From Mytilus galloprovincialis (taxonomy: Eukaryota; Mollusca; Bivalvia; Mytilida; Mytilidae): DNA of 64,000 nt. A program made the position numbers and the translations under genes. Location of the stretch: positions 64,253,078 through 64,317,077 of the forward strand of contig NC_134841.1 in the NCBI RefSeq assembly GCF_965363235.1. The letters are read 5' to 3'. The notes beneath the pieces were generated by a model that searched no databases, was not told the DNA's origin, and saw only the letters and a program-made list of their open reading frames with translations. This document shows, piece after piece, positions 4,680-60,856 of the stretch (positions within the stretch are counted from its first letter, which is position 1; every line of letters starts with the position of its first letter).

Positions 4680-5263
4680 TTATTGTCGTATACTGAAGAT
4701 ATTATCATCACAAGAATAATACTTTGTCATAGCAGCGAGCGACTCTAATGCTTTGAAATTATCATCTTCTGTATAAAATACTTGACTGGGATCATTCAAA
4801 ACTGCTTGCCAATTTTCCATCACACTGTCCTCCCCAGCAATAACGCCAACAACTTCTAAACCATCTTGTTTAGAATACAAGACTTCGTTCTTTATTTTAT
4901 CCATTTCTGTCCACTTCCCATTGGAGATAATTACCACGATTTTTCTATATGCTGTAAACTGTTTATTTAATCTCACATGTTGCAAGGCATGGCTGGTATT
5001 TGATGTTGATATATGGTTGTCGACGTTAATTTGTAGTGCTGCTGCGATACGTTTGTCTTTGTCTGCAGACCACGACATGGAAAACACTAATTTTGGTTCT
5101 TCAGAATATGAGTACATGCCAATTTTAGCATGTGAGTTATACGTTAATACTTTGTCTATTACATTACGTGTAGCTGCACGACGGTCGTTGTAATTGTCTA
5201 TTGTTTGGTTATTATTATTGTCGAGAAGTATGACTATTTGTGTTTCTTCTTCCAATATGCAAT
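4680..5263 (-). CDS. Copy A last exon: second VWA domain with degenerate MIDAS
   Basis: One 584-nt exon carries the whole second VWA domain and the stop. The acceptor reads CTTTACAG followed by AT, completing a GAT codon with the G ending the previous exon. The metal-site motif DxSxS is replaced by DNNNN, the loop Thr by Ser in SNTSHAL, and the third motif Asp by Asn (ISNGKW). Sequons NQT and NTS fall on the first two loops. The domain ends DNIFSIRQ-stop, as in copy C and nearly so in D and E. Confidence 0.85.
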
Positions 5264-8200
5264 CTGTAAAGCAAATACTGTATAGTTACATAGGAGAAAA
5301 TCATTAAAAATAATAGTAACAAATCATCATGATATGTAACTGTGGGAAAACATCTTTTTTTGTTTTCTATCTTATTTTGTAGAATAAGTAGAGATACAAT
5401 TTTAAACAATTTTTATTTTATTTGCTTTAAATGGTATGTTGCTGTTTCATTGATGTTTATTCTCATAGATGAATAGTATTATATATATTTTGGGTCTTTG
5501 CAAGGGGTACATGTTTCTTGTCCAAATCGAATAATAAAAACATTGTACTTTTTTTTGTTTTGATTCAACATTAATTTTACCTTTATAGGACATATGGGTT
5601 CGTGTAACGTTTAAAGGAAACTAATTATTTAATTTACAATCTAAACCGTTTTATTTCATTCCAGTATAATATGATAAGATTATTTATTTTGTGTAGTGTT
5701 GTGTGGATAAACTCATCATAGATAACAGGACTAAATTTTATATATACGCCAGACGCGCGTTTCGTCTACAAAAGACTCATCAGTGACGCTCGAATCCAAA
5801 AAAGTAAAAAAAAAAAAAAAAGCCAAATAAAGTACGAAGTTGAAGAGCATTGAGATCCAAAATTTTGTATATACGCCTGACGCGCGTTTCGTCTACAAAA
5901 GACTCATCAGTGACGCTCGAATCCTAAAAAGTTAAAAAGGCCAAATAAAGTACGAAGTTGAAGAGCATTGAGGACCAAAATTTCTAAAAATTTTGCCAAA
6001 TACAGCTAAGGTAATATATGCCTAATGTAGAAAAACCTTAGTATTTAAAAAATTCAAAATTTTGTGAACAGGTAATTTATAAATATAACCATATCAATGA
6101 TAATTCATGCCAGCACAAAAAAGTGCAGACTACTGGGCTGGTGATACCCTCGGGATGTTCGTTCTTTTCGTCATGTTCAATGTTCTGATATTCTCCAATC
6201 GGTATTTTCTGCCTTTTTTCGTACTATAGATATTGAACAAAACATAACGTAATCTTATCTGGTGTCATAACATTAAAGTTAAGAATTTGAATAGAAGCTA
6301 TAGTAGAACACGTATTCATCTTCCTGTTCATATTTGGAAGTAAACAACCAAAAGCTACGTTTTAGCAGTACTTTACAAGATACCAAATTTATTTTTTTAA
6401 CCTTCTAAAACTACAAATGATTAAAAATGAATTTTAAATAGACATTTTATAGTTATTAAGTCTTTTATATTTAAAAGTGTACCTGCACACTCAGGATGGA
6501 GTGTTTCTTTTAGAATTTGATTATACATATCATCTAAATGATGCGGACTATATGTATAATACTGTCTGTTTGATATCGTCAACATCTCTGTATATGCAAT
6601 CGACTGTCCGATTCCGACTGATAGAATACGTATACCCATTGCGTTGATTTTCTTTGCCTCTTCAAAAACATCGTTCCTGTCTGTTGATAGACCGTCATGT
6701 AGTAGAATAATGTAGCTTGTTGTTCGACGTGATCCCATAGAATAACTTGTAAGCATCTGCGATAGAAATTTTGTTTGTTTTGATAACACACAATACACAG
6801 CACAAATGTGATATTCCCTTATCGGTAATTGCTTCAACCCAGGTTAGACATTTTAAAGTTTTAAGCTTTAGAAAATAGGTTTTTAAACTTATTTAAATTG
6901 TAGCATTGATTATTTTAGAAAATCGTCAACTTGAAACACTTGCAGATTTAATATAAAACATGAATAAAAAAAAATCTCTGTTATATCATACAAACTGACA
7001 AAATATGTAAGGGTAACTGAAAATCCCTAAACAGCAAACAACAATACACAAAACGCTTTGTACACAGGAAACTAAATACTGTGCAATCAGAACTGCATCA
7101 AAAACGAGAAAGACATCATTTTCACTGGTAGGGTATCCATTTTTGATCAACTATTGTCCCTAATGTTGCACATCAAAACTTGATTATAAGTTTATTGAAA
7201 GAAAAACCAGACTGTCCATGTCTGTATTTACTCCAGAGCCCCTGCATTAAAAGAATATTTTCCCTAGTTAAACCAATATATCAGGGTTTGAGTTTCCTTT
7301 CGTAATATCTCTAATAGAGTGGTCCAACCTAGCATATAGAATGGCATTCTTGTAAAATAGGGACGAAAGATACCAAAGGGACAGTCAAACTCATAAATCG
7401 AAAATAAACTGACAACGCCATGAAATGGAAAAGACAAACAGACAAACAATATTGCACATGTCACAACATAGAAAACTAAAGAATAAACAACACGAACCCC
7501 CACCAAAAAATAGGGGTGATATCAGGTGCTCCGAAAGGGTAAACAGATCCTGCTGCACATGTGGCACCCGTCGTGTTGCTTATGTGATAAAAAATCCGGT
7601 AAATAGTCTAATTCGGTAGGTCACATTCATGAAAGGGAAGGGGATTGTAGTAACTACGTAAGGAACATATCCGATATCAATTGATACTATCAATATCTGC
7701 AACGCTCTACATCACAAGGAGGTAACATCTAAAATTCCTATTTATTTTCAAAATCAGTCTGTTCCTATGGTATCCTACAGTTACACCAAAACAATTGCAA
7801 CTAAAATATTTAACTATAAACAAGCATTGCAGGACCTTGACTTAGAACAATACATAAAATAACCTCCGACATGTGACTGTTCCCACTCGCCTTATAATTA
7901 CAGCCCCTCTGGTCATGTTATAACTGGGGATCTAAACATAATTCAACATGAAAATCTACGAAAGGTGATTTCTCATGGTCCTAAGTTTAGAGAACCCCAA
8001 CAAATCAATTGGAACCATAACTTCAAAATAATTATGGATTCCATTGAGGACTACAACAGAGCATGGGCGAAGCGAGAAGAGGTTGAACTGGACACTTTGT
8101 CAGAATGGATTAAAACTATCAGATCTCTGATAAAACGTCGCATTCACAAGTTGAAAAACTGTGAACGATCGACCAAAGTCTGTTTTCAGAGACAAAGAGG

Positions 8201-11200
8201 CAATGAAATGTCTATCATCTCTTCATGATAAGTATGTTGTTGTTCCTGCGGAAAAAGCTTCAAATAATATTGTCTTTGTATGTAAATCGTATTACTACGA
8301 ATGTCTTGTAAAAGAATTGGGTATAAAGAAGCAATCAGGTGCTCCCACATACAAAGACATATCATTTGACAAGGATGAGATTTTAGCAAATCATAAGTCC
8401 TTCATGGCTTCAATAAACATTACATTGAACACCAAATCGGAGGACTTAACCTTGTTTGTATTGGATACCAAAGCTTCATAAAATTCCGTACAAACAACGG
8501 TATATTGCTGGCTCATCTTCATGTTCCACTAAAGAATTGTCCATTAGATTGACTACAATTCTGTCCGCAGTGAAAGAGGGTCTTCTGAAATACTGTGAAA
8601 CTGTTTACTCGCGTATTGGTGTCAACCATATGTGGATTCTTAAAAATTCTTTTGAACTTCTAGACAATTTTAAATCTCGGTCTTTTTCTGAAATTAGTTC
8701 TATCAAAACTTTTGATTTTTTTTATTTTGCGTACTGATGTTGTTTATCATCTTAACAACGTGTTTTATAGTTCTTTCATTTGTCTTTGTTCTATTATTAA
8801 TAATACTTTTACTGTTGAATGGTTTTATGTGATATCCGTTTGACGTGGCTCGGTACTTATACATCTCTTCAATGTGTTTGTACTGTCTTTCATTTTTTGG
8901 TGGCGTGATTTGTATATGCGACTTTTTGTATTTCTTTGGTTCTTATAACGTGACTCTGTACTTTAAAACATCCCGTCAGTATGATGTTGTTCTATTTTAT
9001 GTCATTATGATATATTTCTATTATGAATTACAAAATACGTTGAACCATAAACGTCAAAATCATTCAATCGTGTAGTGGAATTAACTATTTGTGGATTCTT
9101 ATAAATTCTATATATAACTTTTTGACTATTTTCAATCTCGGTCTATTTCTGAAATTTATTATTACATACTTTTGATTTTTTATCCCTAAATGCTAACATT
9201 GCCTATGTAAATTTTAAAATTGTTTGTATGCACATTGAACGACAAATCTATGTGACGTATAAAATTTTCTGACGTCAGACACACAAATCAATGAATGTGT
9301 TTGTAGATAGATGGTTTTGTGTTCTGTTAAATTGTTCCTTTTAAAATTGTTATACGATGATGACTGATGTACCCATATTTTGACTATTTTATTTATTGTG
9401 TCTGTTTAGTTAACGCATCAATGTAAATATAACGGAATTTGATGAGACTGTCATCAAAGTGAGAGGGTTAGCGCTATAAAACCAGGTTTAATCCACCATT
9501 TTCTACATTTGAAAATGCCTGTACCAAGTCAGGAATATGACAATTCTTGTCCATTCGTTTTTGATGCGTTTTGTTATTTGATTTTGCCATGTGATTATGG
9601 ACTTTCCGAATTGATTTTCCTCTAAGTTCAGTATGTTTGTGATTTTACTTTTTGTGAAACGTCAACCAACTCGTGATGGCGTCCGTAAAACTTACGAAGG
9701 GATGATTTCAACTTCACCATTTGGAACTCTTGGTTTAATAGCTTCCTTGTGAGCAGCAACCCTCTATCAAGAAAATCATGATAGGAAATGCAAGCACGGG
9801 AATATCGTATCAATTCGGAGATATATAACCCGTATGCAGGTGCTGCTGGAATGTTGCTACTTAGAAATAGAAAGTTCACAATTGGAAAGCTGAAATCATC
9901 TCTTTTGTCGTAAAGTTTTGTTTTCAACCGACCCTCATTGTCAATTTCTAGATGTACATGTAAGTCAAGATATGAGGCCGACTTAACTGTATCTGTAGTA
10001 TCCTTTATCTCTAGTTCGATGGGATTGATGCGTTCCACCTTGTCAACAAATTTCGAATTATTTAGTAAAAGAACATCATCTATAACGCGGAAAGTAGAAT
10101 TAAAGGATATCGCTAACTTCTTATCTTTATAATAATAATACAGAAACAAGTCGCCAAGTAGAGGGCACAATTTGTTCCCATGGAATTCCGACAGTCTGTT
10201 AAAAAACGCGTCCTTCAAACGTATCAAACATGTTGTCAATCAAGAAATCAAGCATCTTGATAATATCAGTTTCAGAGATTTTTTTGTTTGAATCAGAGTG
10301 ATCCTTTACAAAGTAGGATTTATTCCTACCTAAGACAAGATACTTGTATCTACGTTGGCCATTCTTTTTTATGAAGCAAAGTAATACCAGCTCTTTCAAT
10401 TTGTCTTTTAGTTTGGAATGTGGAATAGTTGTGTGAAGAGTAGAAAAGTCAAATATTTTAATACTATTATAAGATAAAAGAGAGTTAGATTGCATGTACT
10501 CTTAAAAGATCTTTGGATTTTTTAAGTATCCACATCTGATTCACGCCACCTCTAGAATATGCAGTTTCACAATAACTTTGAAGCCCTTCTTTGATTGCTG
10601 TAAACTGCAACAATTTATGAAAAGAAAAACACGATAGGAGACGCATGCCTCGTACTTTTTACAAGGATATACACACTTTATGTGCAGGCAATATTGAAAT
10701 TAATAGAAATATTGAAAGCTCCTGGTACAAAGTTTTGCGTTTATGCAGTTTTGTTTACATTAACTACATGTATAAAGATGCCAATTTAACATATATACCA
10801 TTACAAAGCTAAAGATGTTTGTTGTTGGTGGAGTAGTTTTTAATGTGTTTTTATATAATTTTTATAGCCTTCACTCCACTGAAAATATCACGGGCATATA
10901 AAAAAAACCAACTGCATTTATGGTGACCTGTCAAATTTACCTGGCGAGCTTGTCGTAAGGCGATGGATGTGTACGTTGCGGCTTCTTTCCCCTTGATTGT
11001 CTCCAAAACAGCATTCATAACAGTAGCCGATGTGTAATCATCGAGATCAAACAGAACTGTGGAATTAATGTTATAGGCTATGACACCAATTTGGAAATCA
11101 TTTCGACCAATAGGAACTTTGCTGATAAATCTATTGATAAAGTCGATGCTTTTGATCACATCATTTTGCAAACTGGCAGACGTATCAACTACAAATACAA

Positions 11201-14200
11201 TGTCTGCAGGACCTGGTCTACAGTCTGTAAAAATTGAAATGCATTTATCTTGACAAACGTTAAACAAATCACACGAACGGGTAATAAATCTATTGAAAAA
11301 AAAACTATAATTCAGAGGTTGTCGTGTGTTTCTATGTTACATATTCGTTTTTTCGTAAATAAAAAAATTCTACATAAATTTAGCCATTAGTTTTCTCGTT
11401 TGATTTTTTTTTTTTACATATTTATCATTTCAGGGCCAGAGTAACTGACTATGCTGTGTGGTATTTGCTCATTTTTGAAGGCCGTACGGTGACATATAGT
11501 TGTTAATGTCTGTGTCATTTGGTTTCTTGCGAAGAGTTGTCTTATTGGCAATCACATCCCACGTTTTTATATGTAAACGATATACATTAAAAAAAAATTA
11601 TGCTGAATCTATGTTTAACATATGAGCACAGAACATGATATGGACTCTAGAATACTTTAAAATGTTTAGAAAGGATGAACAAAACTTCAGTTCAAACTTT
11701 TTTTTATTCTTTGTAGGATCCTTTCGGTCATAAATAAACTCATCATAGATACCAGGACTAAACGTATATACGCCAGACGCGCGTTTCGTCTACAAAAGAC
11801 TCATCATATTTGAAAATATCTTCAAGTAGTCATGAAATTATACAGTTCTATACAGTTCTGACATTCAGAAGTTTGAGTTTTTGCGCTAAAGGGAACTGTT
11901 GGTAAGTTCTTCGAGCACACCAAATGTATAAAATGTTATTTCATCATAACCTGATATTGCTTAACAAGGTATTTTGCATCCTACACTTTGAAACAAGTAC
12001 AATTTCAATTGACATCGTAACTTGTCTGTTGAAATCTTTTGATGCACAGACACATCGTTTCCCAAGAGATACAGTATTAAAACAAATATGATTATACTGG
12101 AATGCGACTTATACAATATCGTATTAACTGTCTACGATTATTGTGCGTTTGTACGTGTATAAATTTTATATAAACTCTACATTTTCCTTTATTTAACAAA
12201 ATTACGCGATGCCTGTACTTTAACTGATCATGTCACATTTTAAATATGTAGCGTATCACTTTCAAGTCTAGCTCAGAAGATGTCTACCAATACATGAAGC
12301 TTTATAATTATCATCCATTATACCCCTCTTCATTGTATGTGTCATTGAGTCCATATGCGTTTAACTTATATTCACTTATTACTTTAATCTCATAATTCAA
12401 ATATATTCAATTAACTAAGACAAATCAAAGTAACAACAAAAAATTAAAGGAATTGCGCGAACTTGCAAAGGAGCGTGACCACGTGCGTTTACAAAGTAAG
12501 TGCTATGTTGTATATGCATTACCCGCCATGCATTTCACAACACCAAATACAATTATTAGAGCTGGTTTTTTTTTTATTAACACATATGATAAAAGCTAAA
12601 TAGGTTCATGTAGTATGTGATGTGGATGCAAAACACAATTCTATCAAGACAATAGTTCAATAATAGCATCTTGAATTTTTAGATATCGTGTATAAATGAT
12701 TTCGAAGATTTTTTTTTATATGAAATGATTTGCAATTCACTTGAAATGATACTGATTAGTTATGGATTGTTAATTTGAGCACTACTGATGAGTATCATGT
12801 TGACAATACTGCTAGTTGATATTTGACACTGAGGGTATAACCAGCTCAGAAGTCAGCACTTTATGTTGACATGCACAAACATTTCGTTGTTGAAAATTTA
12901 GAATTATTGACACCTCATGTTGTTCTACCCACTGTCATAGATGGTCATAAATGTATTTGGCACTTTCGTTTATAATTTTTTACTTGTAAAGCTATTCCAT
13001 TTAATGTTTGATTCGCCTTCCCGACTTTTTTTTTATTTGCGCACCATTGATGAGTCATATACAGCTGGTTAACGTCAGAAGTAGAACTAGCATTAGCATT
13101 TTTCTAATATACGTTTACTTACGTCGTAACTACAATCCCCTTCCCTTTCATAAATGTGACCTACCGAATTAGACTATTTACCAGATTTGTTATCTCATAA
13201 GCAACACGACGGGTGTCACTTGTGGAACAGGATCTGCTTACCCTTCCGGATCACCTGAGATCGACCCTAGTTTTTGGTGGGGTTCGTATTGTTTATTCTC
13301 TAGTTTTCTATGTTGTGTCATGTGTACTATAATTGTTTGTTGTCCTTTCCATTTTTAGCCATGGCGTTGTCAGTTTATTTTCGATTTATGAGTTTGACTG
13401 TCCCTCAAGTATCTGTTGTCCCTCTTTTACTGACAATAGAAAAATTAAGTGAGTTTGGTGCGCAAATTTCAGTTAATTTTACACAAAATAAATGTAGTTT
13501 ATTGTCCTCAGTGATTGCTATGACAATTTTGGATTCATTCTATTTTTATTATATTTTCAATATTATTTATGTCCATAACGTTTTCATTTGAACTTATCAT
13601 CAGTATGTGAATATGGAGAACGCGGACAACATGGCACAGTCAGTGTTTATTTGGAAGGTAGTATTTTTGAATAGATTTTATTACTGCTATGCAACGTACT
13701 TCCTGCGTGATTGATTATAATTAACATTGTATAATTGACGAGCTAAAATACAATAATCTAAAGTAAAAATCTATTTAATCAAACCTTTTTCACACACACG
13801 TCCTTCATATCTGTCGGAACAGTTGCACGTGAAATTATTGAATAGATTGTTACACGACCCTCCATTTAAACATGGTACAACCTGGCATTCGTTATAATCT
13901 ATAAAACAATGAATAGATTTAATGGATAAGTACATATTGTGTAATTATAATGAGGTGTAAACTATTGCAGATATGTAAGTCTTCTATCTTAAACATGCAA
14001 CTAGAATCCGTTTATACCTTTTTTTATTAGATTAACTTTTAAAAGAATGAAGGAAAAACATCAGTTTTCAATGTGAATTTAAGTAATAAGATGCAGAAAT
14101 TAAGTAGTTTCACCGTGCCAACATTTTAAGACATCGGTTGTGTTTAACATCAAACCTCGGAAAGCAAACACGTTAAGACACACAAAGCATGAAATAGAAC

Positions 14201-16878
14201 ACCAAAACGAGTCATAGAATTACATATCCATAAGATAACGTAGTCACTGTAGTGAACATGTTCATACGTGGAAATGGTCATTTAATCTATAATTAGATCG
14301 ATACGGAACGATGGTATGCACATGTGGACAATAACGTATCAACTATTTAAACAATTACCATTTACCGGTCAACTTTTAGATAATGGATATTAGAATAAAA
14401 TTGAGAATGGAAATGGGGAATGTGTGAAAGAGACAACAACTCGACCATAGAAAAGACAACAGCAAAAGGTCACCAACAGGTGAATAAAATGTTCTTTCAA
14501 TCAGTGTATTGATTCTTAAGTATACAACATACCTGTCTTGCAATTACTGGCTGGATCCCATCCTGGCACACATTGACAAGTGTAGCTAGTACTGGTATCA
14601 TTACATGTGGCTCCGTTATGGCAAGGAAAAGAGAGGCACTGATCGTCTTGAGACAGACAAAACATTTATGAATTGACATTACTTATTTTCACGCTTCCAA
14701 AAACAAATTATTAAATGTCGAATAATGGAAGTCAAACATAGGTTGGCAAGTTCTCTGATATGTTGTGCAACTAGTGGTTTTGCATAAAAGTATATTTATA
14801 AATTTGAAAACTTTATATATTAAAGGTTGTCAATAATGTTATTTTTATGTATAAATAGTTTTGATTAATAAATTGAATTATGTTACACGTTGTATCAGCA
14901 CAAAACAGCTATCTTTAACAACCATTTGTTTTAATCCAAATCAGACAAATTTAATGTCATGTACACAAAAATCAAAATAATAAAGTCATGCAAACTGGCT
15001 ATTTACCTGAACATCCTAATTTGTAATGTGCTGGACAGGGTGTAGAAAGGTAACAAGCTTGTGTTGAAGTACAAGTATGACCCTGGTTACAATAATACTC
15101 CCGTGATTGCTCATTGTGCTCCTGAAAGCAATACATTTGTTTTTTGGTAATTCAAAATGGATAAATTCTCAAATGTTTCGTTCATGAGAGGATGTATTCT
15201 TATAATCATTAAAAAGAAAAGAACATAATTCTACGAGAAAGGATTCGTTGATAAGAAAGATTTATAAACCAATGTTTAGTTTTTACTTTATTGTTGAATT
15301 CAAATAGGAACAAACCTTTTGAAAAACATTTCTGAATAGCAATTATTTAACTGTTATAATCTGCCCCGCTTTTGTGCTGTCTAATTTTAAAGATATAAAT
15401 TTTTCAAGTAGATGACTAATGTATAAACTAAGGCTAACTAGTTAACCTATCAAATGCTTAAGTCATTACTTACCATACAGCTGTCTTTATTATTTTCACA
15501 ATAAAGCTCATTTGTATTGCAAGCGGGATCACTCCTTCTATTTCTAGTTGGAGATGTAAGGAACGAATAAGCTTCATGTCGTTGTATTTTCCATGGAGCT
15601 TCTACTTCAGCATAGTGTAAGTTCGATAATTCTACAAGGTAGTATATAAACATTAGCCAATATAATGTTTGCTTTTCTCAAATTGAGCCTTGACTATGAA
15701 TGTTTAGTTGAGTTGGGGTTTTTTTTAGTCGCCTTCGTACTATTTGGTTTGTATAGAAACCGACACTACTAAACCACACATCACGAAGATGAAACTTAAA
15801 TAGACATTGAAGTAAGTATTCCTGTTCGCTCAACATAGAAGCATGGATAAAAGGAAAATATGTTTTAAAAATAAAGGAACAACATTAAAAGAGGGCGAAA
15901 GATACCAGACGAACAGTCAAACTCATAATCGAAAACAAACTGACAACGCCATGGCTAAATAGTGAAAACGACAAACAGACAAAGAACAGTAGACAAGAAA
16001 CAACATAGAAAAATCAAGACTGAGCAACATTAACCCCACCAAAAACTGGGGGGAACTCAGGTGCTCCGGAAGGGTAAGCAGATCCTTCTCCACATGTGGC
16101 ATCCGTCGTGTTGCTCATGAATGTTATCACAAATCCGGTGAATAGTCTTATTCGGTAGGTCACAATGACATTTATGAAAAGGGAGGGGATTGTGGTTACA
16201 ACGTAAGAAACATATCAGATATCATATGTGAAACGGTTATTCCATATCGATCAACCAACTCGTGAAGGTGTCCGTAAAGTCTACGAAGGGATGATTTCAA
16301 CTTTACCATTAAAGTATACCTTTTTAAAGTCAATGGTTGGATAGATGTAAGATAGTTTACATATCGCTCAATATATGGAAAACTGTACTAGACAAGAGAT
16401 CGAGGATTTTGCAATTCTTGGACTGAGAATAATCATTAATACTTGATAGTAGTGTTTGAAAAAGAATTCAAACTTTTGTTGCAATTAAAAGTTTGAAAAG
16501 CATAAATTGTTCTTCTTCTCATGTTGTATGCAGTATATTACATTTGTTTCTCGTCTCTCGTTTAAGAAAAAGAATGATCGATTAAAAGAACAAATGTATC
16601 AAAAATATGCATGATACAAATTAAACATTGATTTATTTTGTTTAAAAACTTTACCTGTGCAGAATGATATAAACAAAAACATGTCCGTTAAATGTAAATC
16701 ATTGATATTTTTTTTTAAAGAAATTTAAACAAATACACAAGGATATGAAATTTACATTTGAAGTCATTATAAAGTATAATAACATACAATGTAATAATAT
16801 GTGAAATGGTGGTTATAACTGTAAAACAAACTTACCTATTAATAAAGTAAATATAAATGCGTAATATGATATGTACAT
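4680..16878 (-). CDS. Copy A: secreted 8-Cys / EGF / EGF / VWA / VWA protein, complete
   Basis: Eight coding exons read right to left: 16878-16836, 15631-15474, 15121-15007, 14646-14533, 13898-13785, 11224-10941, 6756-6483, 5263-4680. All have GT/AG borders and an open frame, giving about 561 residues. Order: signal peptide (MYISYYAFIF), propeptide ending RNRR before SDPAC, eight-cysteine module, an EGF starting DDQC, a calcium-type EGF starting DYNEC, VWA1 with MIDAS DTSAS, a TYT loop Thr and HDG, then VWA2 with degenerate LLDNNNN and SNG. The start is the only ATG in the first coding exon and lies just 3' of a TTTTTTCCGCAG acceptor, so a 5' non-coding exon is expected. The 4.2-kb intron between the VWA1 halves is swollen by retroelement debris. 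Likely an extracellular matrix, adhesion or recognition protein. The domain calls are firm; the role is inferred. Confidence 0.85.
5735..6012 (+). repeat. R1 dimer, two copies in tandem
   Basis: Two successive copies of the CGCCxGACGCGCGTTTCGTC core, spaced about 128 bp, each followed by AAGTACGAAGTTGAAGAGC. They lie in the last intron of copy A. Confidence 0.75.
6483..6756 (-). CDS. Copy A exon 7: second half of VWA1
   Basis: The 274-nt exon begins ATGCTTACAAG right after an AG acceptor and enters in phase 0, so this ATG is internal, not a start. It carries the third MIDAS motif as [11 protein letters not shown], then GIRILSVGIGQS and the C-terminal helix region ending HPECAG. It ends on the first base of a codon, as in copies C, D and E. 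Confidence 0.85.
7362..10625. mobile_element. Composite of broken reverse-transcriptase retroelement pieces inside a copy A intron
   Basis: Three blocks of the same element lie in mixed orientation: the 3' end in minus sense (about 7362-7683), an N-terminal part in plus sense (about 7684-8737) and the reverse-transcriptase core with an FRVIDDVL box followed by the C-terminal region (about 9638-10625, minus). The wording NIPAAPAYG and [10 protein letters not shown] marks the family, which I take to be Penelope-like; that class is uncertain. A diverged second copy of part of the plus block lies at about 9080-9185, and another repeat (about 9338-9655) abuts the core. The element is broken in many places and rearranged or nested; a fossil. 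Confidence 0.7.
9338..9655 (+). repeat. Dispersed repeat R2 (CTATAAAACCAGGTTTAATC family)
   Basis: Wording: TAAAACCAGGTTTAATCCAC, CTGTACCAAGTCAGGAATAT, GATTATGGACTTTCCG, CTCTAAGTTCAGTA. The copy at 39283-39602 (minus) is nearly the same over its whole length, so both are fairly recent. Probably the 3' part of another retroelement; class not determined. Confidence 0.65.
10941..11224 (-). CDS. Copy A exon 6: first half of VWA1, intact MIDAS
   Basis: The 284-nt exon encodes [18 protein letters not shown], giving the MIDAS DxSxS, and later EAATYTSIALRQARQ with the loop Thr. It enters in phase 1 and leaves in phase 0. It is the reference for recognising the 13-bp deletion and stop in the matching exon of copy C. 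Confidence 0.85.
11737..11806 (+). repeat. R1 fragment
   Basis: It starts AACTCATCATAGATACCAGG, then the GCCAGACGCGCGTTTCGTC core, and ends at GACTCATCAT. In a copy A intron. Confidence 0.65.
13107..13428 (+). mobile_element. 3' end fragment of the same retroelement family
   Basis: Plus-sense copy of the untranslated tail, from the GTCGTAACTACAATCCCC block to the terminal GTCCCTCTTTTA wording shared with the copies at 24.6, 39.9 and 45.6 kb. It lies in the copy A intron between EGF2 and VWA1. Strongly 5'-truncated fossil. Confidence 0.65.
15887..16312 (-). mobile_element. 3' end fragment of the same retroelement family
   Basis: Minus-sense tail plus the last part of the coding region, located in the first coding intron of copy A. 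It begins at the shared AGAGGG-type terminus and runs to the region encoding the C-terminus. Broken, 5'-truncated. Confidence 0.65.
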
Positions 16879-21760: not shown

Positions 21761-21874
21761 CTGTTTGGCAATTATTTCCTGCATACCCAGACGAACAGGA
21801 ACAGTTGTAGGTATTGAATAAGTCTGAGCAGACACCACCATTTTGACACGGGTTCGATGAACATTCATTTATTT
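21761..21874 (-). CDS. Copy B EGF exon of the copy-E type
   Basis: The 114-nt exon encodes [16 protein letters not shown] and onward, six cysteines, ending NNCQT. The equivalent exon in A, C and D reads DxNECQVVPCLNGGSC. The SSNPCQN wording is close to the copy E exons at 60743-60856 and 60113-60226. Copy B has therefore kept, or received by exchange, an EGF of the older type. Confidence 0.75.
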
Positions 21875-42856: not shown

Positions 42857-43437
42857 TTATTGTCGCTTACTAAATATATTGTCAACACAAACATGATATT
42901 TTGTCATTGCAATGAGCGAGTCTAATGCTCTGAAGTCGCCCTCTTCTGTGTAAAACACTTGACTAGGGTCATTCAAAACTGTCTGATAATTTTGGACTAT
43001 GCTGTCTTCTCCAGCAACAACGCCAACCACTTCTATACCATCTTGTTCAGTATACGAGACTTCATTCTTTATATGATCCATATCAGTCCATATTCCATCT
43101 GAGACAATTACCACCATCTTTCTTAATGATGTGAACTGATTACTTATTCGTAAATGTTGCAAAGCATGACTAAGGTTTGATGATAAATGATTGTCAAGGT
43201 CAATTTGCAGCGCTGCTGCGATACGTTTATCTTTGTCACCTGACCACGTTATAGAAAACACTTCTTCTGGTTCGTCTGAATATGAATACATGCCAATTTT
43301 AGCACTTGGATTGTATGTCAATACTTTGTCTATGAAGTTACGCGTGGCTAAAAGACGATCGTTATAACCATCAATCGTCTGATTGCCGTTTGTGTCAAGA
43401 AGAATAATTACTTGAGTATCTTCTTCTATGTTGCAAT
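42857..43437 (-). CDS. Copy D last exon: second VWA domain
   Basis: The exon runs 116 nt further 5' than the first Met in its frame: DCNIEEDTQVIILLDTNGNQ is in frame and preceded by a TTTTTTTCACAG acceptor. It is the only copy whose third metal motif still has Asp (VSDGIW), while the first motif is DTNGN and the loop Thr is Ser. It ends NIFSKRQ-stop. Confidence 0.87.
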
Positions 43438-46400: not shown

Positions 46401-49400
46401 AAAAAGTAGATGTGGTATGATTGTCAATGATACAACTTTTAACAAGAGACCAAAACTTAACAACTATGGGTCACCGCACGGTCTCAACAATTAGCAAATC
46501 TATAAATGGCCTCGAAATGACAATGTAAAACAATTCAAATGCGAAAACTAACGGTCTAATTCATGTATAAAAAATAAACGAAAAACAAATATGTAACACA
46601 TCAACCAAAGACAACCACTGAATTACAGGCTCCTAACTTGGGACAGGCACATACATACAGAATGTGGCGGGGTTAAAAATGTTAGCGAGATCCCAACCCT
46701 CCCTCTAACCTGGGACAGTGGTGTAACAATACAACAAAGGAACGAACAATAACAACCAGTTAAAAAGGCTGCACTCATCAGATGGATAAAAATACAAATA
46801 CTGCAAATACAAATGGACGTTGCCGGGTACTTTTACATACCAACAACAAAATGACACTACGTACAGATCTGAGAGTACTTGCAGTTACTCAAATGCATTT
46901 AATAAGACAAAGTACATATTCTATGATCAAACAACAGTCTAAAGTCAATATACCTAATACACTGACCGTCTTTCTTGTAGTCTTCAAAACTTGAAAAATT
47001 GCTTATACAAGAATTAACTATCGTTTGTCCGTCAAACAAATCATAGGACAGCAAAAAGATTGTACAGAAGAAAAATCATTGAGCAGCTATGCAAATGAAA
47101 CATTAAGCAACGTATGAAAAGAAATATGAGCCGCATTTGAAAACTAAACAATGGACATCATATAAAAACTGAACATTTCGAAGTATATGGAAACTAAGCG
47201 TTGAGCAGCATTCAAATATTTATAATTTTATACAACGGACATTCTAGTATTTTCTAGCGTAAAGTGGTCTTTTAATTGTCAAATAAGTTTGATTATTTTA
47301 TGTGTGGAAGAAATGTTATAATCTTTACTCCGAAAGATAAAGAGCTTATAGAAGATAGGCGGAAAAACTATTAGTGATATTCAAACTATAAGTCGAAAAC
47401 TAACTTACAACGCCATGGAATAAAACGAAAAAGGAAAGAAAAACAAACAACAGTAGGCAAAACAATGAAACTAAAGACTGAGCTGCAGGAACCTCACCAA
47501 AACTTTATAGTATTCCAGAAACCAGATCATTTTATATATACTATATCGGATATCAAAGCCTATTTTCAATTGCATTTAAAAGTGGTTCTTTACATCTAGA
47601 GTCCAAACTCATTGCTTAACATGAATTCTTTCTAATCAAATTTTTTTATACTTGTGTACTGGACCATCGAACTTAATGATTCTTTTTATCTATAGGAAAT
47701 TATGAATTATCATTTTACATCTAACCTGTTTCACAAACAGTTCCTTCGTATCTCCCCGTACAGTCACAAGTAAAAGCGTTCCATAAATTGTTACATGAGC
47801 CTCCATTTAAACAGGGAACAACCTGACACTCGTTAAGATCTGTAAAACAACGAACCAAATGAATACTAGGTAAGAATATAATAAAACACTTTTTTTTCAT
47901 TTATCTAACTGAACTTTTTCTGGTATGAAGCTCATAGAAGTATTATATTGACGTCAGAGTTAAGCTTATACTTCTATGGGTAGCTTTAGTGCAATTATAT
48001 TTTATATCAGGGAAAAGTTCTGTTCAGATGCCAACGGAGCTTTCCAAGGAAATACAAAATATCAGCATATATCAATCTTCAACAGTGGTGCTTGGCGCTA
48101 AATACCTAAAAGCTGCATTTGTTTAACTTAAACGGTATTGTATATCTATTGGTAGTGTATGCTACTCTATGAACTTATACTTAGGTTTTTTAGATTGAAG
48201 TATACTGGAAAAACAAAAACTCAGTTAGTTATTTATACCTACTCGTAGTGCATTAAGTCATCTAATACTGGATCAAAACAACATTTCTCAGCAAAATAAT
48301 TGTAAAAGAAACATGTTTACTCACATTTAAAACAAGTGGTATACAACCTAAGAGTTACTTATTTGAAAACCCTACCTGTAGCACAGTCAGTTGCCGGATC
48401 CCAGCCTGGGACACATTGACAGTTATAGCTGGTACTTGTGTCCTGACACGTGGCTCCATTGTGGCATGGAAACGATAGGCATTGGTCATCTAATGACAAT
48501 ACAAAATTGATATATAATTCAAAGTCCACATCACACAAATAGATAAAAATAATAAAATTTTATATTGCTTGTACTTTGAATTACATTTTTTTGTATGATA
48601 TATAGGTTATACCTATTATTGGTTCTTTGATTAAATTGGTTCTTTACTATGTTTTCTAGTCAACAAAAGAAAAGAAACAAGACAATGTGTTCCCATATAT
48701 AATGAAATTTGATACACGTACCAAGTTAAATAATTGCCAAATTGCTATATTTAGTGTTATTTTCCTACTTTTTTCACTCAAAAATTTTAAAATCGATATT
48801 ACAACTTAAAATTTCAAACTGACACATGGTCTGCCTAAAATTTTGAAAGCCTTTGCTGACATTTGAATACTTAATTATCATCTTCGATATTAGGTCCCGA
48901 TTGTTGTCATCATATTCCGCAAAATGAATTTGACCCCTATGTTCAATATCACGGAATTTTTTGCTTTCCAATATGGTTAGATCTTTTAATCATATGCATA
49001 TGTTTTTTTCAATGACTATTTTTATTGGATAATTTAACAGTTTTTCCTATTCATTAAATTTTCTAATGAGGTTCAGAAATGTGTATCGTTACTTGCGCTC
49101 ACTAGTATATATTATTGAGTTATATCTGTCCTTAATTTAATTTTACATTACCTGTACATCCTAATGCGTAATGTGCTGGACAGGGTGTAGATAGGTAACA
49201 CGCTTGTGTAGAAGTACAGGTATGACCCACACAATAAAGCTCACGAGATTGTTCGTTGTGCATCTGAAATTAATTGTTATTTTGTATATTTGACATGGAA
49301 AGCAACATAATAGTATAGGGTGAAAAGTTGGAAGTGTGCAGAACTACAACTAGTTAGTTGTTGATGTGTGAGACTAAAAATGCCACAACAGCTGTGTAAT

Positions 49401-50780
49401 TGCGTCATCGCTGTTTCAGACCATTTTTAATTACTTGATTGAATATAATGCACATTTGTACCCATATGGGTTGAAGGCATACATAAATCAACATAGTAAT
49501 TTTACAATACATCATACAGAAAAAAACAACAAAAGAACCAAATGAAAATTACCATGATGGATGGTTGACACTTGTTACTGTATGCGATGGTTGTTTTCGT
49601 TTATTGTTTAACCATTGAATAAACCGTTGTTTTCTCTTTTGCATAGTTTCATATTTTTTCATTATAGGACCCTTTGAATCTTACTAGATCTGTACGGTTT
49701 TTGCTCATTATTAAAGGTAGTAAGGTGATCTACACACAGTTGATATAAATTCTAACCTCTCTGAAATATATCAGGAAAGACACCATTAAAACAGAAGCGA
49801 TTCTACCGTAGAATAATTTTAGACAGTTCCAACCTAGAATAGTTATAAATAGTTTCAACATCTGAAATACTCTCACAGTTCTATCCCTGAACAAATGGAT
49901 AGTTCTTCTAGCGAACAGTTTTATACATGTTTATCCTACAAATCAATTTCAGTTCTATATACCAGTTCTGTGACAGATCATTTCGACAGTTTTAAAAAGA
50001 AGTTAGAACTTATCCCAAACATTTACGTCTTTTGGTTTCCAGTGGATAATTTTCCAATTGGCAATCATACCACATCTCCTTAAACATTTTCGTATTTCTA
50101 TTTCTCAAAGAGGAGCCGCTATTTCTACTTTTTCTACAGCCCCTATTTGGACGTCGTCGTTGAATACTCGGTATATTTATTTCGTTTGATATTATTATAA
50201 GTAAAATTTGTATTATTGTTTCAGAACTTAATTCTTTACCATACAGCTTGCTTTGTTTGCTTCACAATAATACTCGTCTGTATTGCAAATGGGATCACTT
50301 CTTTTGTTTCTTGTTGGAGCTTTGAGGAACGAGTGTGCTTCATGTCGTGGTATTTTCCATGGAGCTTCGACTTCTGCATAGTGTGCGTTAGACAATTCTA
50401 CAAATAAGATATATGTAGTTGTTCAATATTAGCCTTGTATAGAGGATAACTCTTAAAATAAATGTAATATTGCACTTTGTATGGTTCATTCGTTAATGTG
50501 TTATTCAAAATGTATAGCACTTAGAACTTATAAAAATAAATTCAAATGCGTTACAAGACAAGAATAATATTTTTAACTCTCTCTCTGTGACGGAAGCATT
50601 AATCACCTCTAAATTGAAAAGTTAATTACATTTGTATATAATTCATTTATAATCTTTTTAAGAAATCACTGAATATTGAATAAATTAAACTCTTCAAAAC
50701 ATAAAAATATTATTGCTAGTATGTCTAATAGCTAACTTACCTATGAAAGAAAATACTAAGGCAATTTGTAAAATGAACAT
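42857..50780 (-). CDS. Copy D: secreted 8-Cys / EGF / EGF / VWA / VWA protein, complete
   Basis: Exons right to left: 50780-50741, 50397-50240, 49263-49152, 48489-48376, 47839-47726, 46364-46081, 44349-44076, 43437-42857. All borders are GT/AG and the frame is open for about 558 residues: signal 1 to about 17, furin-type site after R46 (RNKR|SD), eight-Cys module 51-103, EGF1 104-141, EGF2 142-179 (DLNEC, calcium type, with the Asn-hydroxylation pattern CxNxxxxFxCxC), VWA1 180-365 (DTSDS, TYT, HDG), VWA2 366-558 (LLDTNGN, SNLS, SDG). The eight-Cys exon is one codon shorter than in A, B and C. The acceptor TTCTTTTCAG lies just before the ATG, so there is an upstream non-coding exon. AATAAA at 42644-42649 (minus) is about 210 nt past the stop. 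It is the best-preserved close relative of copy C. Confidence 0.87.
43910..44052 (-). repeat. R1 copy beside a splice donor of copy D
   Basis: Reverse R1 ending GTCCTGGTATCTATGATGAG about 25 nt from the donor of the exon at 44076-44349. Confidence 0.7.
44076..44349 (-). CDS. Copy D exon 7: second half of VWA1
   Basis: This exon carries [18 protein letters not shown]; copy C lacks the FYEA segment. Its donor is about 25 nt from the end of a reverse-oriented copy of the ~150-bp repeat (about 43910-44052), which has therefore inserted almost against the splice site without damaging it. Confidence 0.85.
45225..45595 (+). mobile_element. 3' fragment of the retroelement in a copy D intron
   Basis: Plus-sense tail with the end of the coding part (TCACGAGTTGGTTGACCG). 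It sits between exons 6 and 7 of copy D; the matching intron of copy C lacks it, so it probably arrived after the C/D duplication. Truncated fossil. Confidence 0.7.
45737..45797 (-). repeat. R1 fragment, reverse
   Basis: TAGACGAAACGCGCGTCTGG to CCTTGGATAACTATTG, in the intron between the VWA1 halves of copy D. Confidence 0.65.
45824..45930. mobile_element. Small palindromic MITE, ~107 bp
   Basis: TTAAGGTATACCACCCTCCT at one end against reverse TTAGGTAAACTACCCTCCT at the other. In the copy D intron between the VWA1 halves. Confidence 0.55.
46081..46364 (-). CDS. Copy D exon 6: first half of VWA1, intact MIDAS
   Basis: The exon encodes [18 protein letters not shown] and EKAATYTATALRQARE, with the DxSxS and loop Thr of the MIDAS. 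It is 284 nt, enters in phase 1 and leaves in phase 0. It is the intact counterpart of the disabled exon at 32963-33233. Confidence 0.87.
46405..46780 (+). repeat. R3 copy, long form, in a copy D intron
   Basis: It begins GTAGATGTGGTATGATTGTC next to exon 6 and runs to ACCTGGGACAGTGGTGTAAC; the first half is clearly mutated. Confidence 0.6.
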
Positions 50781-54905: not shown

Positions 54906-55489
54906 TTACTGTCGCTTGATAAAAATGTTCTCAGTACAATTATGATATTTTGTTACTGCTGCAAGCGACTCTAAGGACGTGTAGCCGTCATCTTGAACAT
55001 CAAATATATAACTTGGATCGTTCAAAACACCTGCAAGATTATCAACGTTACAATCGTCGCCTGCCGCTACACCAAAGGTATGTATGTTTTGCTGCTTTAA
55101 TAATTTAACCTCCGTGTTTATTTCAGCTAAATTATTCCAATTTGCATTAGAGAATAACACAATAATTCTTCGTGAGGTTTTAAATAAGTCACTTTCCCGT
55201 ATATGATTTAATGCATGACTCAGGTTTGAAACCGTATTCAATTTATCAACCTTAACCTGCAATGCAGCGGCAATTAATTCGTCGATATTAGATGACCACG
55301 ATAAATTAAACACTTGTTCAACTTCGTCGGAATATGAAAACATGCCAATATCTGCATTTGGATTGTAAGTTGTTATTTGTTCTATTGTTCGTCGTATTGC
55401 TGTTAGTCGCAGGTTATACTCTTCTTTTGTTTGATTCTTGCTTGTATCTAACAGGAGAATGACCTCTGATCTTGTTACCATTAAACAGT
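54906..55489 (-). CDS. Copy E last exon: second VWA domain
   Basis: The 584-nt exon begins (G)AC TGT TTA ATG GTA, so the DC opening is conserved although the rest of the N-terminus (LMVTRSE) differs from the other copies. Metal motifs are DTSKN, SNLSHAL and SNANW, so the MIDAS is lost here too. Sequons NQT and NLS are kept despite wide divergence elsewhere. Confidence 0.85.
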
Positions 55490-58400
55490 CTGTAAATATC
55501 AAAGATGTGTTCAAATGTTTAAAAAATTAATTTGTTGAGTTTCAATACATTCAAAACAAAACAGTTCATTTTTATAGGAATACAACTTTTCCTATTTTAA
55601 GTGTTATTGATATTGTATACAACGCCGTGTTGTTGGTTATTCACTTGCAAAATATCCTAAACATTTTTTACATAGATATCCCATCACTTTTTAACAATTA
55701 TGATGACGTCCATAATAATTTTGAGAAGATGTATTCAACTTTAAGATTCAGATAACTTATATGTAAGCTTTTAACTTCTATCAAAGAAATAAGAATTGAA
55801 CAAATAAGCTATGTTATATCAAATACTGTATCCACTAGGAAATATATGATCATTATGCAGACTCTGCTCTAATGGAGCTACACTGAAAATGGAAAGTTCA
55901 CAATGGGAAAATAGTGACAAATTCTTCTGGCGTAAAGTTTAGTTTTCAACCGACCCTCTTTTAAATGCGAGATTGCTAAATCAAGAAATTAGGCAGACTT
56001 AATCGTATGCTATTTCACGGTCGTAGTAATTTGTGCGCTTTAAATGGTTACCAAATTTTCATTTATTCGGTGAAATAAGCAGATGTTGAAATTAAACGTT
56101 GATGTCAGATTTTTCTCTCCCTTCAAGCAGCTCATGTATGAAGTCGCATACGCTGTTAGTAGAATAATAAAGCATTTTGATGATGTTCAGAATCAGCTGC
56201 CTTTTTGATATAATCAGAGAATTTAAAAAAATATGATTTGTCTCTTTCTAAAACATTATATTTGTAACTGTGTTTTTATTAAACTGATTGCCCGGTCTGT
56301 CTATAAGTTTAGAATGAGAAATATTTGTGTAAAAAGGAGATCCGTTAAACGAAAAGTGTTCCTTTACAAATATCAAACTAATCCTATATATCAAAACAAT
56401 GAATATCGGTTGTAGTTAAATTCATTTTAAGATTATTACCTTTTTCGTAATAAAGAACACAAAATTATGTATCATTTTGTTTCTGTTTGATCAAAGACTT
56501 CTGTGTACAACATATTCTTAACAACAACAAAAAACATTTTGTAAATAATGTTAACAATATTAATATTTCAAAGTGAATGAAATTCTATTATGAAATATAA
56601 TTCGTGTGACGAAACAAACTTCATACTACACATACAATTAAATTTTAAAGCTGTACTACCTGTGCAATTATCTGGAACAGTTTCCTTATAAATATAATTC
56701 AACATATCACCTAAAAAGGATGTGCTGAAAGTGTAGTATTGTTTCTCTGAAATCGATAACAACTCAGAGTATGATATAGATTGACCAACAGCAGCAGTGA
56801 TGATACGTCCACCAATGGAGTTTATTAACTTAGCCTCATTTACAGCGTTATTCCTGTCTGTTGATAAACCATCGTAGAGTAATATCATATAGCTAGAAGT
56901 TCTACGTGCTCCCATAGAACTGTTAGTTATCATCTACAACAGTTAACAGTTAGAGAACATTTAAGGTATGATTTGTATTTTTCTTAGTAATCTTACTCTG
57001 AATTCTAAATAATAACTAACAAATAATGCATCAACAAATCGAAACCGAACTTTTGTAGTTGTCAGTGTTCGTTAATAGTTTAGCTTGCCATAAGTTTTGA
57101 TTCGAGAGCCACTTAAATTACTTATGTAGACGAAATTAATTGGATTGCAATAAATTATAAGTAGATTTCATCCCGTAGTCAACACTGTTGCTTTTTAAAA
57201 TATCATTGATATGGTAACTATGGTAACACGTATGACGTATTTAATTACAACCTGGTATCTTTGATGATTTTTATGAACTATAAGAAATAAATAAGATCTC
57301 CGCCAATAAATCACAGTTATGTGTTAAACATACTTTGTTGTCTCTTTGGCACATTCCCCATTTCCATTCTCAATTTTATTTATTGTTGGTGTCAGTCAGG
57401 TATTTTGGTCAATTTTATTTCTTAAATATCCATAAATGCACACGACTAGATTATTCTTTGTGCTTAAAATCATGTTTCGTACATATTTTTTTATTTTATT
57501 TCCATTCAGTTTAAGCGAGGTTTTATTGTCATAGAAATTATGGGAACCGATTAATCATACGTTTGAGATGTTTTTGAAGACATTCACAAATCTGCTTTTC
57601 TATGACGTGTAATAACATATGTCTCATCAAAATGTTTTTGTTTTTATTTATTTAGTAGTAGCATGGTAAAAAAAAACTAAATTAGAAAAATACTGAAGTC
57701 CAAAGAAAATTCTTATATGAAATTCTCTAATCAAATGACAAAAGCTCAAACACATCAAACGAATGCAGATGTCACTAGTGCACAGAAACGGACCATCTAA
57801 TTTCATTACTGATTTAGTGAGGATTCGTGGTTTTTCACATCGAATTTACATCTTTTTCCGTTCAAGATCACATATTAACAATTTTAAGATCATTTATATA
57901 TTTACCTCTTTTGCTTTCTGTAATGCTGGTAAGGTATACGTGGCAGAATCTTCCCCTTTGATACGCTGCAGTTCGGCAATCATACTCAAAGAAGTATTGT
58001 GATCATCAAGGTCGAAAAGAACATTTGCTTCAAAATCATAAGTGATAACACCCACTTGAAAGTCATCTGGACCAATCGGTATTCTTTTGATAAATTCAGT
58101 AATAAAATCGAGACTTCTGTTGGCACTTGTTTCTAAACTAGAAGAAGTGTCAACAATGAATACGATATCTGCTGGTCCAGGTCTACAATCTGTTGAAAAA
58201 CACAATATCTTAACTCAAAACAGTGTTCTCATATCTCTGATGTATAAGGTGTAACACCACTAATTCAGGCCCGACCAGAAAGCACATACTAGAAAGTAGT
58301 ACATATTTAATACAAAATAGTTCCTACGCATATGTGTTACTTTCGAAATATGTAGATCATTTAGGTATTTTTGGTATGAAATGAAAGCTGGAGGACTGGT

Positions 58401-60856
58401 GATTATTTCAGAACACTTTTTGACTTATTATTTTGAATATTAAAAAAACTGCATCAAATTTTAAAAAGAGGGTACATTTTGTCTGTTTCTCAGATATGAA
58501 GTACCTGTTTTGGTATATATGAAGTTCCGGGAAGCAGTTCTTTCTTATATTCCACTAAAGGTATGTTGATTTCTTCAGTACAAGACACCATAAAGTGTTG
58601 CTTTGACATGCAATGATTTTCACTTTATTTGAACTTAAAACAAAAGAGGTGCATGCTTGAAACGTAGGAATTTAACACAGAGAAAGCAATGGGACCATGA
58701 ATTAGTGGTGTACTTCCTATTAGTGTGATGATTTCAAAGCATTCAAATGTGTCTTATTTTCGTATTTGATTGGGAATGTAAACTGTTTAATCTTTAAAAA
58801 GATGCTTACAAATGCGGCGACTATACTTAAGATTCATATGACGCTGATGTTAACACCATTCCCACTTGTAACACGCTTCTTATTATTTTTGATTGTTTCC
58901 TTGGTATTGTTTCCTTTATAACAAGTAATAATTAATCAGTTTATTACGAGTGTCTTTCATAGTTTGCCGGGTTTTTTTAAATAAAGAATATGAATTTACA
59001 TTAGGTACAAAGCAAAATAGATGCATGATCTTAAATTTCTCATTCTTTATACCAAAAAAAGCTTTCATCACCTGTTTGACAGATATCACCTTCGTATCTT
59101 CCTGTGCAGTCACAACTGTAGCTGTTGATTAAGTTTTTGCATGATCCCGTATTCATACATGGATTTGACTGGCATTCGTCATAGTCTGTCGTAAAAAAAA
59201 TATATCAGATGTCTGGTATGTAAACATATGTTATTTTAAAATAAAAACTTAATATGCCATTTTCTGATAATAAACTAGTTCAAAACACTATCTTAAAAGA
59301 TGTAATCAAGCAACATTAACTCTTCAAACCTTGCAGTTAGTTTCGATTGTCAATAATATTAACCTCGAGCATCGCTGAAGACACAAAAATGTCGACATGC
59401 ACATCTTGTGCACCATTAATGGTAATATAACAACTGGATCGATAACTGTTAGTTCCTAAGATCATAAATCCTCAAGAAGCTCAGTACTACGGTGCAGGAA
59501 TGGAAATACGGATAATGTTTTATTATAATCTGTTGTAAATCTCTGAATTCAGACTATGTTATGTTTCTCTGCCATGCATGGCGCTGATTCCTTTTTTGAG
59601 TTTGGCATATCAATTGTTATTCTTTTCGCTTATATCAATTTATCAAAGTCTGAATTGTGTTAGGATCTTTATGTATTTCGGCATCGAGCAATACTTAAAA
59701 GACATTAACAGTCGATATGCGCATCTGGTACCATTTATTTATGTCAGTCCGTGTGCACAATATGTATTCCTTATATTTTACCAGGTATGCCCCGACTTAA
59801 ACTGTAAAAAGTCAAATATGAAACGTTTGAAAGCATCAATGCCAAGAGAGCAAAATAGTCAATTTGATGCTACTACTTCAATCGTTTAATCTTCAAGTTT
59901 CGATCTAAAATGACCCATATAAATAAGACAAATACCAAAGCACTGGCTATTAGGTAGATGGTCACTACATGAATAATAGTCAACCATGGCCAGTAGTGGT
60001 ACCGATCATATTGTAGTTAATCATACATGAAGTGAATCAATTCGCCCATTATGAGTTGTTGTTCGTGTTTGACTTCGGAAATTTCAAATTCATAGATTTT
60101 TATTTTCATTACCTGTCTGACAGTTAGATCCAAGATACCCAGGTTCACATGAGCAAGTGTATCCGTTCACGTGATCTGTACAACTTCCGCCATTTTCACA
60201 AGGGTTCGACGCACATTCATTAATATCTAAAACATGATAGTATTTTTATTGCATATCTAAAACATGATACATCTTTATTTAAGGGATAATAATACTGTAG
60301 TTGAAGAGTTGACGCCGTCAATTTGGGATTTGCAAATGATGTTTCACTGGCGACAAAAAAAATAGCTTGTAAGCATTTCCTGCACCGTATACGGCACCCG
60401 TCGTGTTATTTCTTTGTTCAGTTCGGTAATGATGGAAGGTTATTATAACAGAGGCAGAACATCCTACATGATTTCTGACACAACTTTGTCATAATGTCCA
60501 ATCAGCTCATGATGGCGACCGTAAAATTTCTTGAGTGATGACCTTAATTTGAAAATTTCTTGAGTGATGACCTTAATTTAATTGATGAATAGCCCTGTCT
60601 ATAGAACAATATCTTCATAATTAAAAATATGACTATCATATCCGGAATCATTTAAAATAAACGATCGTGTTTATAGTTTTGTTATAATTTTTTTGGCATA
60701 AGTTTTTTTATATTATACTTTATCTGCCTAAAATGACAATACCTGTTTGACATACAACTCCAGTATATCCTAGCATACATGCACACATGAAAGCGTTTAC
60801 TTGGTCTGTACACGTCCCAGCATTCTGACATGGGTTTGAGGAACATTCATTTATAT
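54906..60856 (-). CDS. Copy E: diverged EGF / EGF / EGF / VWA / VWA gene, 5' end off the window
   Basis: Exons right to left: 60856-60743 ([13 protein letters not shown]), 60226-60113 ([13 protein letters not shown]), 59185-59072 ([13 protein letters not shown]), 58189-57906 and 56933-56660 (VWA1; DTSSS, TYT, YDG), 55489-54906 (VWA2; LLDTSKN, SNLSHAL, FSNANW; ends NIFIKRQ-stop). All borders are GT/AG and the frame is open. The three EGFs are calcium-type; the DDQC-type EGF, eight-Cys module and signal exon of the other copies are not seen up to the right edge, so the gene is partial here. VWA exon lengths and phases equal those of A and D. It is the most divergent member and possibly closest to the ancestral form. 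Confidence 0.85.
55886..56015 (-). mobile_element. Very diverged internal fragment of the retroelement
   Basis: Wording such as GGAAAGTTCACAAT and TTTTCAACCGACCCTC aligns with the coding part seen at 40440-40560. It lies in the intron between the last two exons of copy E. Old fossil. Confidence 0.45.
56660..56933 (-). CDS. Copy E exon 7: second half of VWA1
   Basis: The exon is open from [16 protein letters not shown] to VPDNCTG and carries the third MIDAS motif as [11 protein letters not shown]. Same length and phase as A and D. The residues around [19 protein letters not shown] show the divergence of this copy. Confidence 0.85.
57906..58189 (-). CDS. Copy E exon 6: first half of VWA1, intact MIDAS
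   Basis: The exon encodes [18 protein letters not shown] and [14 protein letters not shown], so DxSxS and the loop Thr are kept. Acceptor TTTTTCAACAG and donor GAG|GTAAA are good matches to consensus. Confidence 0.85.
60375..60595 (-). mobile_element. Very diverged 3' part of the retroelement in a copy E intron
   Basis: GGCACCCGTCGTGTT and CTCATGATGGCGACCGTAAA match the tail and end of the coding part of the family. A segment AAATTTCTTGAGTGATGACC is repeated in tandem. Old fossil between two EGF exons. Confidence 0.45.

Follow-up and report, generated by a model that had tools for sequence, protein, structure and literature searches.

A tandem cluster of five EGF-VWA genes in Mytilus galloprovincialis that may encode secreted matrix or adhesion proteins

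VWA and EGF modules occur in proteins of mussel byssus and shell, and more widely among the matrix proteins of animals. In matrilins they are arranged in the order VWA-EGF-VWA-coiled coil, and mussel foot protein 2 is not known to contain VWA. The secreted mussel protein PTMP1 (PDB 4cn8) has two adjacent VWA domains (residues 53-242 and 249-439), which make up most of its chain of 454 amino acids. Some of the VWA domains of collagen VI alpha 3 (PDB 9han) have altered MIDAS loops.

The stretch of DNA analysed here, 64,000 nucleotides of M. galloprovincialis, is called the window; positions are counted from its first letter and those above 64,000 lie beyond it. Exon-by-exon modelling bore out the first-pass annotation of this stretch in that five EGF-VWA genes lie head-to-tail on the minus strand, in the transcription order E-D-C-B-A, with A and D complete (open models), C disabled by lesions, B a half gene of five exons, and exon lengths and phases nearly fixed between copies. 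Gene E had been described as diverged, which holds for its VWA exons; it is modelled, however, as a complete gene and the longest member, and it is probably a mosaic with two 8-Cys exons near those of A-D. The genes and the parts of gene D are located as follows.

4680-16878, minus strand: gene A, 8 exons, 561 amino acids, open throughout
21761-26458, minus strand: gene B, five exons (signal, two 8-Cys, EGF1 and an internal-type EGF), all open, with AG/GT junctions
30164-37186, minus strand: gene C, broken
42857-50780, minus strand: gene D, 8 exons, 558 amino acids, open throughout
50780-50741, minus strand: gene D, signal exon
50397-50240, minus strand: gene D, propeptide, furin-type site and first half of the 8-Cys module
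49263-49152, minus strand: gene D, second half of the 8-Cys module
49152-50397, minus strand: gene D, 8-Cys module as a whole, two exons, with the furin-type site NKR/SD
48489-48376, minus strand: gene D, EGF1
47839-47726, minus strand: gene D, EGF2
46364-46081 and 44349-44076, minus strand: gene D, VWA1 exons
46309-46326, minus strand: gene D, MIDAS loop 1 of VWA1 (DTSDS)
43437-42857, minus strand: gene D, VWA2
43376-43384, minus strand: gene D, sequon N-Q-T of VWA2, in the loop where a canonical MIDAS has DxSxS
43169-43177, minus strand: gene D, sequon N-L-S of VWA2, adjoining the MIDAS threonine position (loop 2)
76997-54906, minus strand: gene E, 17 exons, 904 amino acids, 11 EGFs, open throughout
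54906-64000, minus strand: part of gene E within the window (EGF9-11, VWA1 and VWA2)

A six-frame comparison over the window and 80 kb on each side (224 kb) showed family matches on the minus strand alone, from 4683 to 76436; with the candidate signal exon of E, the limit moves to 76997. No sixth copy was found in the 80 kb on either side when the exons of gene D were compared with the six-frame fragments (blastp, E value up to 0.05). All five copies have a candidate signal-peptide exon of 40-43 nt, followed by an exon with the propeptide, the furin-type site and three Cys. The common plan continues with an exon carrying five more Cys, the EGF exons, VWA1 (two exons) and VWA2 (one exon), which in the copies of the window ends in C..NIF(S/I)(K/I)RQ-stop. 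Exon 2 is 158 nt long (164 nt in C), exon 3 112-115 nt, each EGF exon 114-117 nt, the two VWA1 exons 284 and 274 nt (271 and 262 nt in C) and the VWA2 exon 581-584 nt. Introns of the coding models are in phase 1, phase 0 being used only within VWA1 and within the 8-Cys module, and all junctions are AG/GT with the sole exception of exon 2 of gene C, where AT occupies the acceptor position.

The window contains no Rfam match, and none of ten further open frames in it gave a Pfam match above the cut-off. Two related open frames (9631-10239 and 40171-40599, both on the minus strand, with 94% identical DNA over 381 bp) and a third related fragment (16199-16387) are situated in an A intron and on the 3' side of D; they look like a retroelement remnant and did not reach the Pfam cut-off for any family. 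The introns and spacers of the cluster also contain a dispersed repeat, present in both orientations and approximately 80-96% identical, with units of about 330 bp or longer (7352-7683, 13109-13436, 15883-16310, 24038-24605, 39859-40433 and 45236-45592). An open frame of 770 amino acids consisting of fp-1-type decapeptide repeats is located on the same chromosome as the cluster and identifies the genome as that of a Mytilus, most likely one of the edulis group.

The signal, furin-type site, 8-Cys and EGF1-8 exons of gene E lie outside the window, up to 13 kb beyond its end. Mature A and D each contain 24 Cys, an even number, and E contains 79. In gene C, the acceptor of exon 2 is lost, VWA1 exon a has both a 13-nt deletion and a stop codon, and VWA1 exon b lacks 12 nt without a shift of frame; since omega between C and D is still 0.20, a recent inactivation is suggested. 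Between the second EGF exon of gene B and gene A, neither a VWA exon nor any other exon of the family was found. In an EGF tree of 37 columns only, the last EGF of E and the second EGFs of A, C and D were split (99/99) from the rest, including the second EGF of B, which clustered with the internal EGFs of E. From this position, gene B resembles the 5' portion of some longer form. The last exon of B ends in a phase-1 donor and exons 2, 4, 5, 6 and 8 of A begin in phase 1, so that a putative read-through transcript from B to A (21761 to 16878) could remain in frame.

Divergence was estimated by the method of Nei and Gojobori (NG86) over all shared modules in ten pairs; in some single modules dS was saturated and undefined. 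The lowest dS was obtained for C-D (0.42), followed by B-C (0.53) and B-D (0.55), with values of 0.71-0.75 for A versus B, C and D, and of 0.9-2.2 for the pairs with E. The copies had been called fast-evolving, a description that finds no support here because overall omega was 0.15-0.24 in all ten pairs. YN00 gave omega values of 0.30 (A-B), 0.18 (A-C), 0.16 (A-D) and 0.29 (B-C). The highest value for a single module was 0.96 (second 8-Cys exon, A-B, 38 codons) and the next 0.39; no positive selection was seen in the pairwise comparisons. Gene B gave omega values of 0.17-0.24 against the four other copies, which suggests that constraint acted on its five exons during most of their history. The copies are old, constrained duplicates.

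With dS values of 0.42-0.75, A-D are thus neither alleles nor assembly duplicates, and haplotigs or assembly duplication were ruled out by dS together with the absence of near-identical copies elsewhere. The genome assembly holding the cluster comprises 1.385 Gb in 331 contigs. An assembly artefact is unlikely, because the matched exons of A, C and D have a DNA identity of 77-89%, the 224 kb do not contain a single N, and the nearest VWA2 match elsewhere in the assembly, outside the cluster, is only 52% identical at the protein level.

A genome search with VWA2 gave 17 matches, corresponding to 15 family loci (one of them split over two rows) and one ordinary VWA. The 15 loci are distributed over four chromosomes, with four in the present cluster, three at C4:94.72-94.75 Mb, three at C12:46.0 Mb, two on C2 and three on C5; in-frame stops are present in three of them. 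Each of three arrays contains broken copies, namely gene C in this cluster, two VWA2 copies at C4:94.7 and one copy on C12. The paralogues L035 (C12:46032600-46033350), L030 and L031 (C4:94.72-94.74 Mb) and L046 (C4:94.79 Mb) are interrupted by in-frame stops or by a break of the frame. The C4 and C12 arrays likewise mix open and broken copies. Dense groups of ordinary VWA domains, the majority complete in a single open frame, occur at C14:67.11-67.31 Mb and C4:74.14-74.29 Mb.

The first-pass annotation could not name the architecture, and indeed the order signal, furin site, 8-Cys, EGFs, VWA, VWA has no Pfam name, nor was a description found in the open-access literature searched, as far as the accessible parts of those sources go. 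Pfam recognized EGF above the cut-off in 11 stretches of E and in two of D; VWA was recognized above the cut-off as well. The protein of gene D, queried with seven wrong-frame residues in its 8-Cys part, outside the VWAs, scored 134.3 bits against the VWA superfamily PF00092, and VWA2 alone scored 47.5 bits, at a cut-off of 23.8; both domains thus belong to this superfamily. No Pfam family above the cut-off was obtained for the 8-Cys module in the three copies searched. One of these gave two weak matches below the cut-off (E values of 0.015 and 0.089), which were judged to be chance. When the second 8-Cys exon was compared with the genome at E values up to 1, nine matches were obtained: five in the cluster, a further three on C12 and the last at C4:94.78 Mb. 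At the VWA2 loci on C2 and C5 no such match was found, and in this genome the module was detected solely beside exons of the EGF-VWA family.

A VWA with a MIDAS followed by one without, as had been noted from the sequence of the window, is what the wider comparison revealed as well. DxSxS and the loop-2 Thr of VWA1 are present in all eight sequences examined, a set drawn from at least 13 first exons in the family and leaving out the broken gene C and the stop-bearing C12 copy; the loop-3 Asp is present in the three full-length sequences (A, D and E). VWA1 thus has a MIDAS motif. VWA2, in contrast, has DxSxS at none of the 15 loci. Alignment with PTMP1 and collagen VI, by which the sequon positions were assigned, places a sequon N-Q-(S/T) in loop 1 in 12 of the 15, with its Asn at the position of the second serine, and a sequon N-x-(S/T) adjoining the MIDAS Thr position in loop 2 in 13 of the 15. 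The C2:83 and C5:10 loci have neither and C12:46013 has the loop-2 sequon only; in A, C and D, the two are the sole sequons in the domain. The loop-2 sequon was absent from all 13 control VWA sequences of the genome (three VWA1 and ten ordinary VWAs). The ten ordinary controls were chosen by DxSxS and are therefore uninformative for loop 1, and as the ordinary loop, TNTxxAL, already carries the Asn, only a small change separates it from the loop-2 sequon.

VWA2 has lost the MIDAS metal site and seems to have acquired sequons in two MIDAS loops in its place. We infer that N-glycans may be attached at these loops and cover the face of the former metal site; exposure of the Asn residues rests on the alignment, since the AlphaFold model of VWA2 (four window copies) is poor, with a mean pLDDT of 53.3. 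A rather doubtful alternative is that VWA2 contains another metal site, with D-x-N-x-N as a potential calcium-binding loop, or serves as a dimer interface, and is not capped by glycans. Loop 1 does retain Asp, often together with Asn (DTNGN, DNNNN, DINNN), but nine of the 13 readable copies have N or S at the loop-3 position and four have D, and the N-x-S/T pattern has been kept in the large majority of the copies in both loops.

Gene E is probably a mosaic of 8-Cys exons near those of A-D and much older VWA exons. Over the two 8-Cys exons, dS of E versus A, C and D is 0.80, 0.45 and 0.81, compared with 0.36-0.65 among A, C and D; over VWA1 exon b plus VWA2, it is saturated, 2.03 and 1.91, respectively, compared with 0.41-0.76. 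The lower dS of the 8-Cys exons was recovered in 99.0-100% of the bootstraps for pairs that include E, the figure for pairs within A, C and D being 64-88%. At the protein level, the 8-Cys module of E is 77-84% identical to those of A-D and 50% to that of the copy at C4:94, while its VWA2 is 45-48% identical to those of A, C and D and 69% to that of C4:94. The N-terminal exons at C4:94, one of which contains a stop, are assumed to belong to the same gene as the VWA2 there. In the VWA2 tree, the partner of E is the copy at C4:94.7 Mb (97/98); a clade of E, A, C and D was rejected (p-AU 0.011), this clade having been named for the AU test after an earlier VWA2 tree had been inspected.

The 8-Cys tree is less clear: the long, damaged C4:94 row falls among A-D (81/79) and E is not itself grouped with A-D. 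Neither E with C4:94 (p-AU 0.07) nor A-E together (p-AU 0.258) was rejected, and the AU value for VWA1 exon a was 0.426. EGF1 gave high dS values with E (1.3-2.1), yet A-C was also high (2.9). Introns 1-3 of E did not match those of A-D, and patches of the introns of C and D do match each other. The simplest reading for E would be that copies exchanged exons or that two halves were fused, although this is not proven.

We lean towards the view that the products of the cluster are secreted proteins of the extracellular matrix or of adhesion, which would undergo furin cleavage, bind a ligand through VWA1 and carry a glycan-covered VWA2, in a family with turnover of its copies. The signal, the furin-type site, the EGF array, the VWA with a metal site and the even number of Cys in mature A and D all fit such proteins. 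After secretion and cleavage by furin, the EGF repeats (two or eleven) could act as a calcium-stiffened spacer, and VWA1 would use its metal site to bind a ligand in the matrix or on the cell surface. VWA2 would no longer bind in a metal-dependent manner, the face of its former metal site being covered by N-glycans. Tandem duplication, truncation, loss and probably exon exchange between copies would renew the family, giving rise to the two-EGF forms A, C and D, of which C would be a recent pseudogene, to the 5' fragment B and to the long form E, probably a mosaic. The earlier proposal of a family of secreted EGF/VWA proteins with several domains, in which copies are gained, truncated and left to decay, is supported. 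Very improbable, in our estimation, is the further reading of a recombining recognition or adhesion system in which neighbours share and exchange the 8-Cys assembly module, the ligand-binding VWA halves diverge and VWA2 displays sugars or is shielded by them. Its odds are lowered somewhat by the circular loop-1 control, by the presence of the loop-2 Asn in ordinary VWAs and by the failure of the 8-Cys tree to group E with A-D.

Three more specific settings may be considered, all of them unlikely taken singly. The proteins could form part of a load-bearing matrix of byssus or foot, with a VWA that binds collagen-type fibres in the manner of PTMP1 and EGF repeats comparable to those of foot protein 2. 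Among named mussel proteins of solved structure, PTMP1 is the closest relative; byssal proteins with EGF and with VWA domains are described in the accessible part of a Limnoperna study (PMC5911496), and EGF proteins are reported from the foot of Mytilisepta (PMC5549309, excerpt). PTMP1 nevertheless retains DxSxS in both VWA domains according to the alignment, and EGF, VWA, von Willebrand and matrilin are all absent as terms from the main text of a 2025 paper on byssogenesis (PMC12607631). This setting is unlikely; a role in shell or mantle matrix is more doubtful still. Excerpts report that the Mytilus shell contains VWA-containing 'collagen-like' proteins and an EGF protein (PMC4517812) and that VWA and EGF genes are upregulated in shell repair (PMC8194122), but this EGF protein, compared by its description, is 241 amino acids long and unlike A, D and E (PMC4517812, same excerpt). 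Equally improbable are recognition proteins of haemolymph or mucosa, for which the arrays, with their gain, loss and exon exchange, would resemble an immune gene cluster. The broken copies in three arrays and the mosaic E would suit such proteins, as would the massive gene presence-absence variation in mussels (PMC7653742, the accessible main text of which mentions neither EGF nor VWA); there is, however, no excess of amino-acid change, overall omega remaining at 0.15-0.24 in every pair and the single-module values peaking at 0.96 and then 0.39.

The cluster offers a test case for family renewal, with living, broken and fragmentary copies side by side in a genus reported to show massive gene presence-absence variation. 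When the pair of VWA domains was compared with solved structures, collagen VI alpha 3 ranked first for both domains and PTMP1 next, the latter with E values of 3.1e-26 for the pair and 1.7e-18 for the VWA2 profile, a significant match to both VWAs of the cluster. The proteins modelled here differ from collagen VI in lacking a Gly-X-Y triple-helical stretch and in having EGF repeats, and they are not members of that family. Nor are they PTMP1 proteins: the PTMP1 chain leaves little room for EGF or 8-Cys modules, and both of its VWAs have the DxSxS that VWA2 of the cluster lacks. Matrilins and the 'matrilin-like' glue proteins of a semislug (PMC11178922, excerpt) are similar in being secreted matrix proteins that combine VWA with EGF, but A, D and E have the order EGF-VWA-VWA-stop, with no long segment past VWA2, which sets them apart from matrilins. 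Mussel foot protein 2 has eleven EGF domains (PMC5911496, excerpt), the same number as E. Distinctive of the cluster are its architecture, for which no name was found, an 8-Cys module seen only in the family, and a VWA2 in which conserved sequons seem to have replaced the metal site.
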